Source: Thioclava sediminum (GTDB lineage: Bacteria > Pseudomonadota > Alphaproteobacteria > Rhodobacterales > Rhodobacteraceae). From it: 64,000 nucleotides of DNA. Under the pieces are notes generated by a model. It was given only the letters and a program-made list of their open reading frames with translations. It ran no database searches and was not told where the DNA came from. The stretch covers positions 124,001 to 188,000 of the forward strand of contig NZ_MPZV01000001.1 in NCBI RefSeq assembly GCF_002020355.1. The letters are read 5' to 3'. Made by a program: the position numbers and the translations under genes. Every line of letters begins with the position of its first letter. The stretch's first letter is position 1. Below, one piece after another: positions 32,972 to 44,375 of this stretch.

Positions 32972-33008
32972 AGGGGGGCAAAGGCGGGACTGCGCCTGAC
33001 CGTCTCAC

Positions 33009-33083
33009 GCGCCTCCCTCCGCCGGCATTATCCGGTTCAGGTTCTAAGGGTTCGTCTCAGCCCGGCTTCCCGAGCGCCCCTGT
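33009..33083 (-). promoter_or_regulatory. TPP riboswitch (THI element)
   Basis: The minus-strand RNA carries the conserved THI-box parts: ACAGGGGCGC at the 5' end, GGGCTGAGA, ACCCTTAGAACCTGA and GGATAATGCCGGCG, closing with GAGGGAGG. It precedes thiM by about 75 bases. Thiamin pyrophosphate binding is expected to lower thiMED-tenA expression. Confidence 0.97.
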
Positions 33084-33259
33084 CGCTTCGCCCAAAAAGG
33101 TGACACCGTCGGAGCCGTCCGTCAAGCGGGGTAACGACAAGCGGTTGGACGACCAACGGGGGCCTCGATGGTTCGCGTCTGTCCGATCGCGCGATCGTTG
33201 CGATCTATCCGGCGCGCCGCCCTTGCAGAGCCCTGCCCCATCCTTTAGAGGCCCGCTCA

Positions 33260-39676: not shown

Positions 39677-42064
39677 TCAGCGCTGACCTTCCGCCTCGGC
39701 AACATGGCCTTTGACCTTCAGGAAGCTGTCCGGCGTCACCGAGATCGAGTCGATCCCGAACTCCACCAACCTGCGGGCGAATTCCGGGTAGTTCGACGGC
39801 GCCTGACCGCAGAGCCCGACCTTCGCGCCCACGCCATGCGCTCTTTCGATGACGCTCCGGATCATCCACTGAACGGCGGCATGCCGTTCGTCGAACAAGG
39901 GCGCGAGCCGGTCGCTGTCGCGGTCGATGCCCAAGGTCAGCTGCGTCAGATCGTTCGACCCGATGGAGAAACCGTCGAAGCGCTTGGCGAATTCCTCGGC
40001 AAGGATGACATTCGAGGGCACTTCGCACATCACGTAGATCTGCAGCCCGTTGGCGCCGCGCACCAGCCCTTCCTCGGCCATCACCGCCAGCACGCGGTCG
40101 GCCTCCTCGGGCGTGCGGCAGAACGGAACCATCACCAGCACATTGTCGAAGCCTGCCTCTTCGCGCAGCCGCCGGATCGCCCGGCATTCGAGCCGGAACC
40201 CCTCGACATAGGCGGGATCGTAATAGCGCGAGGCGCCGCGCCAGCCGATCATCGGGTTGGATTCCACCGGCTCGAATTGCCGCCCGCCCAAGAGGTCGGC
40301 ATATTCGTTCGTCTTGAAATCGCTCAGCCGCAGGATCATCGGGTTCGGATAGGCCACGGCGGCGATCCGGGAGAGCCCCAGCGCCAATTGATCGACGAAA
40401 TACTCGGCCTTGTCCTCGTATCCCCTTGTGAGCGTTTCGATTTCCTCCCGCACGTCCGTCTCACGGATATCGGAGAAGTGCAGCAGCGCCATTGGATGGA
40501 CCCGGATCGTGTTCGAGATCACGAATTCCATCCGCGCCAGACCGACACCGTCGATCGGCAGCCGCCACCAGCGCGCGGCAATGGCCGGGTTGGCGAGGTT
40601 GAGCATGACTTTGGTCTTGGTTTCCGGCACCGCGTCGAGGTTCAGATCTTCGACCGTGAACTCGGCAAATCCGTCATAGACCAGACCTTCGTCCCCTTCG
40701 GCACAGCAGACGGTCACCTCCTGCTCGTCATGCAGCACATGGGTGGCATCGCCACAGCCGACGATGGCGGGCACGCCCAATTCGCGGCTGACGATGGCGG
40801 CGTGGCTGGTTCTGCCCCCGTGATCGGTGATGATGGCAGAGGCTCGTTTCATGACAGGCACCCAGTCGGGGTCCGTCGTCGAGGTGACGAGGACCGAGCC
40901 GTCCACGAAATCGTCGATATCCTTGACGTCTTCGATCAGGCAGACCCGCCCGGTGGCGATCTGCTCGCCGACCGACAGGCCGCTGACGACGACCGGACCG
41001 TGCGTGCCGATGGTGTAGCGCCGCAAGGACCCCGCAGAGACCCGCGACTGTACCGTCTCGGGGCGCGCCTGCACGATGTAAAGCTTGCCCGTGACGCCGT
41101 CTTTCGCCCATTCCATATCCATCGGCTGCCCGTAATGCGCTTCGATGGTGGCCGCTTGTTGCGCGAGGTCGAGCACCTCGTCATCCGACAGGACGAACTT
41201 CCCGCGCTCGGCTTTCGAGGTCGGCACGTTGCGCACCGGGCTCGGGGCGTCCGGCCCGGCATAGATCATCTTGATCTCTTTCGCCCCGAGCTTCTTCTCG
41301 ATGATCGGCTTGATCCCAGCCTTCCCGAGGAACGGCTTGTAGACCTGAAACTCGTCCGGCGTCACCGCGCCCTGCACGACATTTTCGCCCAAGCCCCAGG
41401 CCGCGCTGATCAGCACGACCTTGTCGAAGCCGGTTTCCGTGTCGATCGAGAACATCACCCCCGACCCACCGATATCGGAGCGCACCATCTGCTGGACGCC
41501 CACGGAAAGCGCGACATCGAGGTGATTGAACCCTCTGAGCTTGCGATAGGTGATCGCGCGGTCGGTGAAGAGCGAGGCGTAGCACTTGCGGCAGGCGGTC
41601 AGAAGCTCCTCTTCGCCCGCCACGTTGAGATAGGTCTCCTGCTGACCGGCGAAGCTGGCATCGGGGAGGTCTTCGGCCGTCGCGCTCGAGCGCACGGCGA
41701 CGGACACCTCGGGCACCCCTGCCCGCTTCGACAGATCGCGATACGCCTCCCGGATCGCGGCCTCGGTCGAGGCGGGCCAATCGCCCGCCACGATCGTGTC
41801 GCGAATGCTCTGACCCGCGACGTGAAGGCTGATCTTGTCGGCATCGTAATCCGCGAGATAGCCCGCGATGGCCTCGGTCAGATTGTTTTCATCGAGAAAC
41901 ATCCGATAGGCATCGGAAGTGGTGGCGAAGCCCGGCGGGACCTGAATGCCCTTGGCGCCAAGCTCCTGCACCATCTCGCCAAGCGAAGAGTTCTTGCCGC
42001 CCACAAGCGCGACATCCTCGCGGCGTAAGCTATCGAAAGGAATGACTTCTTTCTTCGTGGCCAT
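39677..42064 (-). CDS. ppsA: Phosphoenolpyruvate synthase
   Basis: 795 residues; pyruvate + ATP + water to PEP + AMP + phosphate, the entry of gluconeogenesis from pyruvate. N-terminal pyruvate/ATP-binding domain (VGGKNSSLGEM, AVRSSATAEDLPDASFAGQ), swivelling His domain (GGRTSHAAIVSRELG with the phospho-His) and the PEP/pyruvate TIM barrel (GANGLQIYVMCEVPSN, GSNDLTQLTLGIDRDS, LCGQAPSN). The ATG at 42064 has GGGAGG seven bases upstream. An FNR-type box lies about 60 bases before the start. Confidence 0.96.
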   Translation of the reverse strand: MATKKEVIPFDSLRREDVALVGGKNSSLGEMVQELGAKGIQVPPGFATTSDAYRMFLDENNLTEAIAGYLADYDADKISLHVAGQSIRDTIVAGDWPASTEAAIREAYRDLSKRAGVPEVSVAVRSSATAEDLPDASFAGQQETYLNVAGEEELLTACRKCYASLFTDRAITYRKLRGFNHLDVALSVGVQQMVRSDIGGSGVMFSIDTETGFDKVVLISAAWGLGENVVQGAVTPDEFQVYKPFLGKAGIKPIIEKKLGAKEIKMIYAGPDAPSPVRNVPTSKAERGKFVLSDDEVLDLAQQAATIEAHYGQPMDMEWAKDGVTGKLYIVQARPETVQSRVSAGSLRRYTIGTHGPVVVSGLSVGEQIATGRVCLIEDVKDIDDFVDGSVLVTSTTDPDWVPVMKRASAIITDHGGRTSHAAIVSRELGVPAIVGCGDATHVLHDEQEVTVCCAEGDEGLVYDGFAEFTVEDLNLDAVPETKTKVMLNLANPAIAARWWRLPIDGVGLARMEFVISNTIRVHPMALLHFSDIRETDVREEIETLTRGYEDKAEYFVDQLALGLSRIAAVAYPNPMILRLSDFKTNEYADLLGGRQFEPVESNPMIGWRGASRYYDPAYVEGFRLECRAIRRLREEAGFDNVLVMVPFCRTPEEADRVLAVMAEEGLVRGANGLQIYVMCEVPSNVILAEEFAKRFDGFSIGSNDLTQLTLGIDRDSDRLAPLFDERHAAVQWMIRSVIERAHGVGAKVGLCGQAPSNYPEFARRLVEFGIDSISVTPDSFLKVKGHVAEAEGQR

Positions 42065-42122
42065 GAGCTCGCCTCCCCTGTTTGCACCTGCGGGCACTTT
42101 ATCGCAGAGGCGCATTTTGACC

Positions 42123-42136
42123 TTGATCTTTGTCAA
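42123..42136 (-). promoter_or_regulatory. FNR/CRP-family box upstream of ppsA
   Basis: TTGAT-CTTT-GTCAA on the + strand (TTGAC-AAAG-ATCAA on the minus strand), one mismatch from the FNR/FnrL consensus TTGAT-N4-ATCAA. Lies 59-72 bases upstream of ppsA and also within reach of the divergent B12-riboswitch transcript. Confidence 0.5.
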
Positions 42137-42204
42137 CGCGGGCCCGCCTGTCCCACATCCCCCAATCCGTTCTGGACAGCGCCAGATTTTCCTGCGATCA
42201 AATC

Positions 42205-42380
42205 CGGGATGGTGTCCGGCCCCAAAGGGTCGGCTGAAAAGGGAACACGGTGCGGGCGATGCCCAACTCCGTGACTGCCCCCGCAACTGTAAGCGGCGAG
42301 CGCCACCGGAAACGCCACTGACCTGCAAAGGTTGGGAAGGTCCGGTGAAGCTACGACCCGCGAGTCAGGAGACCTGCCAT
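42205..42380 (+). promoter_or_regulatory. Cobalamin (B12) riboswitch 1
   Basis: Conserved parts on the + strand: AAAAGGGAACACGGTGCGGG at about 42237, GACTGCCCCCGCAACTG and TAAGCGG (42273-42297), the B12-box region CGCCACTG (42313), GTTGGGAAGGTCCGG and the closing GAGTCAGGAGACCTGCC (42362-42378). It precedes a small unknown gene and the betaine-homocysteine methyltransferase. Binding of adenosylcobalamin should lower their expression. Confidence 0.97.
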
Positions 42381-42520
42381 CTCGGATGTGCGCTTAGCGC
42401 ATCTCGGTCACCTTAAACCCGGGCGGGGTGCCCTGGGACGGAGAGACGAGAGATGGACCAGATCGGACCTCGCATATCGCCGTGCCGCGACCACTCCCGC
42501 CCTTTTGCGCGGAGGGCGCG

Positions 42521-42826
42521 ATGCTTTTGGAACGAACGCTTTCACTGCTACAACTCGATATAGGACCGATCTCGCCGCTGCGTGCGCGTGAGCTGGGCAC
42601 GTTGGGCTACATGGAATGGCTCGGCGGGCTGCCGGGCGACATGCCCTATGCGAAGGCGGCGATCACCGCCCATACGCAGGCCTATCCGTTCGGCGCAACC
42701 TCGCCCGCCGTCGCGGTGTTCTGCGAGTTGCTGCTGGACTCCCTGAGCCCGCAGCCTTTCGCCCTGCCGATCGAGATGCCCCCGCCGCTCCGGCGCGGCG
42801 GCGCTCGCGCCCGGCGCGGCCTCTGA
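42521..42826 (+). CDS. Small unknown protein between two riboswitches
   Basis: 101 residues starting MLLERTLSLLQLDIGPISP. No signal peptide or clear membrane segment; the middle reads GYMEWLGGLPGDMPYAKAA and AYPFGATSPAVAVFCELLL, and the tail is Arg-rich. The ATG at 42521 has GGAGGG upstream; a longer frame to 42428 lacks one. It follows B12 riboswitch 1 and precedes the SAH-type element and the methyltransferase. I do not recognise the family; its place suggests a role in B12-independent methionine synthesis or methyl metabolism. Confidence 0.75.
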   Translation: MLLERTLSLLQLDIGPISPLRARELGTLGYMEWLGGLPGDMPYAKAAITAHTQAYPFGATSPAVAVFCELLLDSLSPQPFALPIEMPPPLRRGGARARRGL

Positions 42827-42863
42827 GCCTGTTTTTCGTCTTGCGGTCGCATCCTGCGGCCCG

Positions 42864-42932
42864 GCCGAGGACCATTGCAGCAGGAAACGGCACTCCGTTT
42901 CCTGTGAGGCTCGGCTTTTCCAAACGATGGTC
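42864..42932 (+). promoter_or_regulatory. SAH (S-adenosylhomocysteine) riboswitch
   Basis: P1 GCCGAG (42864-42869) pairs with CTCGGC (42910-42915). Inside are GGACCATTGCAG, a 10-pair hairpin CAGGAAACGG/CCGTTTCCTG (42881-42904) and GAGG. After P1 follows AAACG and then ATGGTC (42927-42932), which pairs with GACCAT (42870-42875) as the pseudoknot. Order and sequence (CCGAGGA, TTGCA, AGGCTCGG, AACG) match the SAH riboswitch. The methyltransferase ATG is 26 bases further on with GAGAGGA as ribosome site. In this class SAH binding raises expression. Confidence 0.87.
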
Positions 42933-42957
42933 ATGGATGAACTGAGAGGATCTCTCC

Positions 42958-44007
42958 ATGAATGACAACAAACTGACCCGTCTGCTCGACGCGCGCCCGG
43001 TGATCTGCGCCGAGGGCTTCCTGTTCGAACTGGAACGGCGCGGCTATCTGACCGCCGGGGAATTCGTGCCCGAGGTGGCGCTCGAATACCCGCAGGCGCT
43101 GCGCAATCTGCATGTCGATTTCCAGCGCGCCGGCAGCGATATCGTCGAGGCTTTCACCTATAACGGCCACCGCGAGAAGATGCGCGTGATCGGCAAGGAA
43201 GACCTGCTGGAGCCGCTCAACCGCGCGGCGCTGAAGATCGCGCGCGAGGTTGCCAATGCGAAGACCGGCAACCTGATGGCAGGCAATATCTCGAACACGA
43301 ATATCTGGGACCCGGCCGATCCGGAACGGCAGGCCGAGGTGCGCGCGATGTTCGACGAGATGATCGGCTGGGCGGTTGAGGAAGGCGCGGATATCATTAT
43401 CGGCGAGACCTTCTACTACGCGGGCGAGGCGCTGTGCGCGCTGGAGGCCGCAAAAGCGTCGGGGCTGCCGGTGGTACTGACGCTGGCGCCGATGGCGGGC
43501 AACGAGATGATGGACGGGGTCGGAATCGTCGAGACCTGCCAGCAGCTCGAACAGGCGGGCGCCGATGTCGTCGGGCTGAACTGCTTCCGCGGGCCGCAGA
43601 CAATGATGCCGTGGCTGCGCAAGGTGCGCGCGGCGGTAAGCTGCCATGTCGGCGCCCTGCCCGTGCCCTACCGGACCACGAAGGCGGAGCCCACCTTCTT
43701 CAACCTCTCCGATCACAACGGCTGCACCTGCCCCTCGCCGCATGGCCGGACTTTCCCGACCGCGCTCGATCCGCTGGCCTGCAACCGCTACGAGATCGGC
43801 GCCTTCGCCCGCGAGGCGCAGGCGATCGGGGTGAATTACCTCGGCGTGTGCTGCGGGGCGAGCCCGATGCATATCCGCGAAATGGCCGAGGCCGTGGGCC
43901 GCGAGACCGAGGCCAGCCGCTTCTCGGAGCGCATGGAGAACCACTTCATGTATGGCCAGAACGCCCGCCTTCCGGCGCATATCCGGGCGCTTGGCGACGG
44001 CGCCTGA
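42958..44007 (+). CDS. bmt: Betaine-homocysteine S-methyltransferase
   Basis: 349 residues; moves a methyl group from glycine betaine (or a related donor) to homocysteine, giving methionine without B12. Zinc ligands: Cys in GLNCFRGP and the Cys pair in GVCCGASP. The homocysteine-methyltransferase barrel is complete (EGFLFELERRGYL, EAFTYNGHREKM). It is preceded by an SAH-type riboswitch and, further up, a B12 riboswitch. The exact methyl donor is taken from the family. Confidence 0.93.
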   Translation: MNDNKLTRLLDARPVICAEGFLFELERRGYLTAGEFVPEVALEYPQALRNLHVDFQRAGSDIVEAFTYNGHREKMRVIGKEDLLEPLNRAALKIAREVANAKTGNLMAGNISNTNIWDPADPERQAEVRAMFDEMIGWAVEEGADIIIGETFYYAGEALCALEAAKASGLPVVLTLAPMAGNEMMDGVGIVETCQQLEQAGADVVGLNCFRGPQTMMPWLRKVRAAVSCHVGALPVPYRTTKAEPTFFNLSDHNGCTCPSPHGRTFPTALDPLACNRYEIGAFAREAQAIGVNYLGVCCGASPMHIREMAEAVGRETEASRFSERMENHFMYGQNARLPAHIRALGDGA

Positions 44008-44061: not shown

Positions 44062-44091
44062 TTGACACCCATCCACCCTACCGCCCAATAT
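44062..44091 (+). promoter_or_regulatory. Likely promoter of the nrd riboswitch transcript
   Basis: TTGACA (44062-44067) and CAATAT (44086-44091) with an 18-base spacer, just before B12 riboswitch 2. Confidence 0.55.
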
Positions 44092-44094
44092 GAT

Positions 44095-44265
44095 GTTGCT
44101 TTGGTTCCTGCGAGTCACTCCGCAGGCGAAGAGGGAAGCCGGTGAAATTCCGGCGCTGCCCCCGCAACTGTAAGCGGCGAGCCTTAGGTCCGAATGTCAC
44201 TGGTGCGATGCGCCGGGAAGACGGACCCAGAGGCGCTCGAGCCGCGAGCCAGGAGACCTGCCAGA
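44095..44265 (+). promoter_or_regulatory. Cobalamin (B12) riboswitch 2
   Basis: Conserved parts: GAGGGAAGCCGGTGAAATTC (44131 on), GCTGCCCCCGCAACTG and TAAGCGG (44155-44178), the B12 box GTCACTGG (about 44196), GCGCCGGGAAGACGG and the closing GAGCCAGGAGACCTGCC (44246-44262). Upstream of nrdHIEF by about 110 bases. B12 is expected to switch the operon off. Confidence 0.97.
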
Positions 44266-44375
44266 GCAGATAGACGACGACCGCGGCGGAGGGCCCGGGC
44301 GCGTGGCAGTGTGCTTTGCGCCCTGCCCACGAGCCTTGTCCCGCGCTGCCGACAGCAAACAAAGGGACAGGAACC

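Follow-up and report, generated by a model that had tools for sequence, protein, structure and literature searches.

Serial cobalamin and SAH riboswitch elements, separated by a small gene, precede a BHMT-like homocysteine methyltransferase gene in Thioclava sediminum

Background

Passages of a survey of tandem riboswitches (PMC9481103) describe SAM-I/AdoCbl NOR gates before metE and OFF/ON pairs that start with AdoCbl. The same passages count SAH with the classes for which no tandem was seen, and state that two riboswitches lying more than 300 nt apart, or with an ORF between them, were left out. Passages of PMC4239095 place SAH riboswitches in three gamma- and four beta-proteobacterial groups, with none among its 15 Rhodobacterales genomes, and put the bhmT gene of some Rhodobacterales under MetR. 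On the enzyme side, passages of PMC12366255 report that Bmt of Phaeobacter inhibens forms methionine with either DMSP or betaine and needs neither folate nor B12.

We analyzed a locus of Thioclava sediminum within a stretch of 64,000 nucleotides, hereafter the window. A preliminary description had proposed that a cobalamin and an SAH riboswitch could act there in series, as a logic gate, on a methionine synthesis gene (bmt).

Results and discussion

Organization of the locus

On the plus strand the order is cobalamin aptamer, small gene, SAH aptamer and bmt (Table 1). The divergent gene upstream of the cobalamin aptamer is phosphoenolpyruvate synthase. The cobalamin riboswitch was recovered as announced, by a full-length RF00174 match (E 1.1e-33 over the window), the start first proposed (42205) falling 12 nt inside the aptamer. 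The whole genome contains three RF00174 matches at E<=0.001. As for the arrangement in series, the order held, and the two aptamers do not share an untranslated leader: the 465 nt between the two aptamers take in a conserved 101-aa gene, which splits the pair. The small-gene stop lies 29-36 nt from the SAH aptamer, and this tight order is kept in three genera; across the same number of genera the gap between the small gene and bmt is 127-134 nt, mostly occupied by the SAH element, and the genes are co-directed.

Table 1. Positions of the elements discussed in the text, in window coordinates
Feature	Coordinates	Strand	Basis or remark
TPP riboswitch	32997-33091	-	70 bits
Cobalamin riboswitch aptamer (RF00174)	42193..42395	+	134.4 bits vs gathering 31.5, model 1-189
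Putative 36-aa leader ORF	42453..42563	+	overlaps small-gene start; GGAGAG (Shine-Dalgarno-like) before ATG
Possible hairpin covering the Shine-Dalgarno, before small-gene start	42498-42518	+	folding
Small gene, 101 aa	42521..42826	+	dN/dS, family relatives
Hairpin directly 5' of the SAH aptamer	42845..42861	+	GGUCGCA-UCC-UGCGGCC, fold of the stretch before P1
SAH riboswitch aptamer (RF01057)	42861..42939	+	34.3 bits; own model R1; covariation; core bases
SAH pseudoknot, 5' strand GACCAUU	42870..42876	+	7/7 pairs with 42926-42932, one U-G
SAH pseudoknot, 3' strand GAUGGUC	42926..42932	+	last base also pairs into start-codon hairpin
Predicted alternative hairpin with bmt Shine-Dalgarno (GAGAGG, 42944-42949) and AUG	42930..42966	+	minimum-energy fold, ensembles
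bmt, BHMT-like homocysteine S-methyltransferase, 349 aa	42958..44007	+	PF02574 E 8.5e-38; 1umy
Second cobalamin riboswitch	44085-44279	+	139 bits

Identity of the second aptamer

When both Rfam covariance models were applied, RF00174 scored above its gathering threshold whereas RF01057 remained below it, at 34.3 bits against 37 (E 2e-4 for a 1-kb stretch searched against all 4227 families). This match nevertheless heads the 8 obtained from the genome at E<=10, with 21.8 bits for the second; the seven others have E values of 0.15 to 9, and the best of them was taken as chance by its score. Elements before bmt in the genus relatives and in an Oceanicola MAG (33.9 bits) also fall below the gathering threshold, and those of Vannielia litorea (41.1) and of an Azospirillaceae MAG, locus L060 (44.7), exceed it. 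Single RF01057 matches of 27-34 bits occur in other alphaproteobacterial genomes and those inspected look like chance, so that the score alone is no proof. Of the four found elsewhere in the class, two (31.6 and 27.3 bits) lie inside ORFs that by eye resemble genes, and two others are without the strict SAH core, one of the latter being close to it by eye.

Comparative evidence was obtained from 8 distinct sequences, aligned by fitting to a P1/P2 model built from six of them, which does not contain the pseudoknot; MAFFT alone misaligned L022 and L060 in P2, and the model-based alignment was therefore used. Over 19 pairs, 95.3% of the cells are paired and 8 pairs are changed on both sides, and neither value was reached in 500 shuffles. 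Of the five measures compared with shuffles, one was unexceptional: the observed count of further pair types was reached in 54 of 500. Sliding the pairing partners by 1-3 columns lowers pairing to 23-47%. The double-sided changes are located in P2 (five), in P1 (one) and in the pseudoknot (two, both from L060).

The core was compared with 30 typical SAH loci, the best 30 places from 299 genomes of the phylum, over three segments totalling 37 positions, the first two being located by short anchor motifs present in all 38 sequences. Positions invariant in the 30 typical aptamers are kept in 8/8 of our sequences, with the exception of one pseudoknot pair, which is G-C in 30/30 typical aptamers and here C-G in 7 and A-U in 1. 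This flip probably explains the low Rfam score, and other Rhodobacteraceae members carrying it may be hidden from RF01057. All 7 pseudoknot pairs form in 8/8 relatives. At fixed model positions, 26 of the 30 typical loci have 7/7 pairs, two have 6 and two are out of register; a looser pattern, which matched 24/30, took wrong partners in some rows and was replaced by these fixed positions. A model of our own, R1, was built from six of the elements, whose scores with it are high by construction; on sequences outside its building set it gave 49.5 bits for L022 and 22.6 bits for L060.

The sub-threshold RF01057 score and the C-G pair in place of a G-C found in every typical aptamer would also be expected if the element were a decayed or altered SAH-like RNA, which binds no SAH or another ligand and leaves bmt under B12 alone. 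We regard this as improbable: the changes are compensated, the other invariant core positions are retained, the Vannielia and Azospirillaceae elements score above threshold, and a decaying element would scarcely retain the complete 7-pair pseudoknot in every sequence. The preliminary claim of an SAH riboswitch between the small gene and bmt is therefore borne out by position, conservation and covariation, the RF01057 score being insufficient alone, and both riboswitch elements are confirmed as sequence elements.

The hairpin found directly 5' of the aptamer is weak (z from -0.25 to -3.9 in 8 sequences, with simple shuffles). By eye, a hairpin of differing sequence occupies this place in other Rhodobacteraceae genera.

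Predicted switching at the bmt start

The effect of the pseudoknot on the bmt start was predicted with secondary-structure energies, the pseudoknot being imitated by a constraint. In the free RNA, the region of the bmt AUG is predicted to pair with bases located at and just after the end of the pseudoknot 3' strand. When this strand is forced single, the predicted accessibility of the AUG rises from 0.07 to 0.77, compared with a mean of 0.13 and a maximum of 0.23 for 63 control blocks placed upstream of the 3' strand. The effect depends on one base: blocking 42925-42931 gives 0.08, and including 42932 gives 0.77. The mutual exclusion of the two structures would thus rest on a single pair, the outermost of the pseudoknot, present in 8/8. 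Blocks of the hairpin arm behind the 3' strand open the AUG equally well.

The predicted AUG accessibility rises in 7/7 of the Rhodobacteraceae sequences folded, the six others going from 0.08 to 0.77, 0.14 to 0.72, 0.14 to 0.78, 0.43 to 0.60, 0.56 to 0.62 and 0.36 to 0.83; for L060 no change is predicted in the pseudoknot state (0.35 to 0.35). For the Shine-Dalgarno sequence, a fall in predicted accessibility is seen in L022 and in the four genus sequences folded (for example from 0.50 to 0.35), and a rise in the Oceanicola and Vannielia sequences. From the folding, SAH is thus predicted to turn bmt on at the level of translation.

The fall in Shine-Dalgarno accessibility within the genus is what one would look for if both switches governed bmt and the SAH element were an OFF switch, the two then forming a NOR gate. 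This arrangement seems very improbable to us, as the AUG of the window is predicted to become about ten times more accessible and as repressing a homocysteine-consuming enzyme during SAH build-up makes little metabolic sense. SAH riboswitches are moreover said to be activators, reportedly since their description by Wang et al. in 2008.

The cobalamin riboswitch and the small gene

The small gene announced by the preliminary description proved to be real: it evolves under purifying selection (dN/dS 0-0.56 in 21 pairs from 7 sequences) and has relatives in 29/374 genomes of the family. No Pfam or NCBIfam model matches it at E<=1. It represents an unnamed family of about 100 aa with varied downstream genes.

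A cobalamin riboswitch lies upstream of the small gene at 27 of the 29 family loci (the window, L123-L142 and L143-L150), the exceptions being L136 and L147. With a loose rule, a leader ORF overlapping or abutting the small gene was found at 19/25 of the loci with both elements, a count that left out L125, L136 and L147-L150; by eye its N-terminus, approximately M-D-R-x-G-P-x-x-S-P, is similar across loci. At one locus (L132) the small gene is flanked by cobalamin riboswitches (1047-1242 and 1913-2119), both on one strand.

The genes that follow are diverse. Among 8 ORFs tested downstream of the small gene, three encode homocysteine methyltransferase-domain proteins (L124, L144 and L145) and three periplasmic binding proteins (L126, L127 and L129), each of these six on the same strand after the riboswitch and small gene; the remaining two are an MFS transporter and a PIG-L protein. 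NCBIfam comparison covered three of the 8 ORFs and gave only matches below cut-off, the best for the L144 methyltransferase being MetH models and that for the L127 binding protein a weak BtuF match. At several loci (e.g. L131, L135, L137 and L139) the sole sizeable downstream ORF is on the opposite strand. Since the neighbours vary in this manner, the riboswitch and small gene may form a self-standing module, which may stand alone or head other genes.

A scan of 42050-43000 for intrinsic terminators found no strong one, with three weak terminator-like stems against 0.8 expected by chance, and none was found between the small gene and bmt in the window. The lack of a strong terminator, together with the hairpin that may cover the small-gene Shine-Dalgarno and the leader ORF, makes it likelier that the riboswitch turns translation off, affecting bmt by polarity, than that it controls transcription. 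In this respect the preliminary proposal, transcription when B12 is low, is not borne out, a translational platform on the small gene or the leader ORF being the likelier one.

Alternatively, the locus may consist of two separately driven units, the cobalamin riboswitch serving the small gene only and the SAH element and bmt having a promoter of their own within the small gene, in which case the gate would be a mere effect of neighbourhood. We consider this rather unlikely, less so than the other alternatives. It agrees with the rarity of Bmt relative to the small gene (3/394 against 29/374 family genomes), the riboswitch and small gene occurring mostly without Bmt, and with the loci L022 and L060, at which SAH element and bmt occur without a cobalamin match. 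The order kept in three genera, with its 29-36 nt between small-gene stop and SAH element, argues for a single unit instead. A promoter scan of 42050-43000 detected no promoter-like site, including upstream of the cobalamin aptamer where one is expected, the scan being insensitive here. Lastly, a cobalamin aptamer directly before the bmt ortholog of three Actinobacteria leads one to expect B12 control of bmt.

The Bmt enzyme and methionine supply

The naming of bmt agreed with its PF02574 match and with its closest solved structures, which are BHMT. The best alignment, to 1umy (E 2.7e-46 over residues 8-330), is to rat BHMT. Cys209, Cys298 and Cys299 of Bmt align with BHMT Cys217, 299 and 300, the zinc-binding positions, and by homology and these aligned cysteines Bmt is classified as BHMT-like. 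The residues aligned with W44, Y77 and Y160 of BHMT, which have betaine-binding roles, differ, so that betaine need not be the methyl donor of Bmt.

The genome gave no PF01717 (MetE domain) match in a search that was positive in 10/14 control genomes. The genome encodes two other PF02574 proteins; one PRK07534-type methyltransferase scores over the model cut-off, and its gene is near that of a corrinoid protein matching MtgC models below their cut-offs. The window Bmt itself scores 92 bits with the PRK07534 model, against a cut-off of 338. The PRK07534-type methyltransferase and the corrinoid protein probably make up the B12-dependent route to methionine that has been studied in Ruegeria (PMC12478193). 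The PRK07534-type protein appears to resemble Bmt of P. inhibens, which according to passages of PMC12366255 made methionine in vitro without B12, and the window bmt may accordingly not be the sole B12-free route.

If the other methionine route of the cell needs B12, a shortage of the vitamin would disable the corrinoid route, homocysteine and SAH would rise, and both inputs would call for Bmt. Both signals fit such a target: a lack of B12 would shut down the B12-dependent synthesis of methionine, and SAH would report failing methyl recycling.

Other riboswitches were noted nearby. The second cobalamin riboswitch of the window precedes nrdH and nrdI, and an ORF resembling by eye the large subunit of class Ib ribonucleotide reductase is also behind it; together with bmt, these genes would make a B12-sparing block. 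The third cobalamin riboswitch of the genome precedes an ORF that by eye resembles a TonB-type receptor. A TPP riboswitch is present on the minus strand of the window (Table 1).

Distribution and history of the pairing

The complete order (cobalamin riboswitch, small gene, SAH element, bmt) occurs in the five Bmt-bearing genomes of the genus (the window and L013-L016, L014 and L021 seeming to be one genome), in the Oceanicola MAG (L023) and in Vannielia (L024), so that the survey for the same pair in other genomes was positive. Five of 16 genomes of the genus have this Bmt, and the same five have an RF01057 match, each just upstream. In the family, Bmt is found in 3/394 genomes, and in a draw of 388 genomes the R1 matches at E<1e-9 were only in these same three. 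Weaker R1 matches were obtained in 15 of the 388 (E from 7e-6 to 0.01), and none of the nine inspected has the strict SAH core.

RF01057 itself is frequent in the phylum, where 101 of 299 genomes have a match at E<=0.001 and 99 have one over cut-off. In the class it is rare, with 5/385 at E<=0.01 and none over cut-off; both counts were made with stricter filters. None of the 30 best SAH loci of the phylum has a cobalamin riboswitch at the gathering threshold within flanks of at most 1.5 kb.

To follow the enzyme we used 80 named Bmt loci, the best 80 of 312, among which the closest named relative is Thioclava sp. JE_KL1 (99%); a few of these loci carry little upstream DNA (87 nt for L028). Five have an R1 match at E<=0.0013, namely L021, L022, L023, L024 and L060. 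Five further matches, at L066, L037 (two), L094 and L058, with E values of 0.008-0.63, were judged to be chance by their scores. An Rfam scan covered 26 of the 80 loci, 10 at E<=0.5 and 16 at the gathering threshold. Within these 26, a cobalamin aptamer precedes bmt together with the SAH element in L021, L023 and L024, and without an SAH match in L034 (Pseudonocardia), L049 (Serinicoccus) and L068 (Austwickia), that is in 3 of the 12 actinobacterial loci scanned, the L034 match covering model positions 45-169 only. The SAH element stands before bmt without a cobalamin match in L022 and L060. In such relatives nature has taken the proposed gate apart into its separate inputs.

A phylogeny of 81 Bmt proteins unites Thioclava, Oceanicola and Vannielia in one group (100/88). 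L022 branches near this group and near a large actinobacterial group, and L060 lies elsewhere, on a long and unsure branch. The presence of the SAH element requires at least 2 changes on well-supported branches, so that SAH element and bmt occur together in two parts of the tree; judging by the places of L034, L049 and L068, cobalamin aptamer and bmt likewise do so in more than one part. The riboswitch inputs would have been attached to bmt more than once, or lost often, and the tree decides for neither. A search of plasmids with Bmt gave no match at E<=1e-80.

A model for the control of bmt

The reading that we favour, by a modest preference, is that of a cobalamin OFF and an SAH ON riboswitch placed serially on one operon. 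The cobalamin riboswitch, at the head of the transcript, would act on the leader ORF or small gene behind it; with plentiful B12 these would remain untranslated and, by polarity, little full-length message would reach bmt. On the message that does, the hairpin would hold the bmt Shine-Dalgarno and AUG as long as SAH is lacking. Binding of SAH would lock the pseudoknot, the 3' strand could no longer feed the hairpin, and the start codon would open. Overall, bmt would be expressed under low B12 combined with high SAH (NOT A AND B).

A NOT-B12-AND-SAH gate controlling bmt is thus likely but unproven, in so far as sequence comparison can tell. The earlier gate interpretation is partly supported: it is plausible, each input being found alone on the same bmt ortholog elsewhere, with the exception of its transcriptional B12 step.

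Comparison with known systems

That no example of this pairing had been described, as the preliminary description stated, is in agreement with the tandem survey, in the passages of which SAH is listed as a class not occurring in tandem (PMC9481103). No cobalamin/SAH pairing was found in the literature searched, most subscription papers being outside its coverage, nor in passages of PMC3766115, PMC9600662, PMC9481103, PMC4239095 and PMC2864571. By the tandem definition given in those passages of PMC9481103 the window pair does not qualify, with 465 nt and one gene in between, and circuits of this kind will escape surveys that discard pairs interrupted by a small ORF. We would give close to an even chance that the locus is the first natural circuit to join an SAH riboswitch with another riboswitch, a cobalamin-OFF/SAH-ON pair acting across a small gene, assembled in Rhodobacteraceae from two modules that are also found separately (cobalamin riboswitch with small gene, and SAH element with bmt) and making bmt only when B12 is short and SAH is backed up.

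Concerning the second element, the locus shares with the SAH riboswitches (RF01057) of ahcY, metF and metH the aptamer, the pseudoknot and the core bases, and differs from them by its target, a BHMT-like gene in Rhodobacteraceae. With the actinobacterial loci L034, L049 and L068 it shares the bmt ortholog family and an upstream cobalamin aptamer; these loci differ in having no SAH match and a cobalamin aptamer only 54-144 nt before bmt, too short a distance to hold the small gene. Bmt of P. inhibens, in passages of PMC12366255, is a homocysteine methyltransferase like the window Bmt, but it is part of a split MetH-like complex, and its likely equivalent here would be the PRK07534-type protein rather than the window Bmt.

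The closest parallels in circuit design come from the passages of the tandem survey (PMC9481103). AdoCbl/c-di-GMP-I, AdoCbl/c-AMP-GMP and AdoCbl/T box-Val pairs match the window pair in order and in expected logic (NOT A AND B); they differ in the second class, in the target gene and in the metabolism concerned, and have no intervening ORF. The SAM-I/AdoCbl pair before metE, of the Bacillus clausii type, resembles the Thioclava locus in that two-ligand RNA control including cobalamin is applied to a B12-independent stand-in enzyme for methionine. In that tandem both switches are OFF, giving a NOR gate within one untranslated leader, whereas in the window the partner of the cobalamin riboswitch is an SAH element, expected to be ON, and a gene lies between the two.
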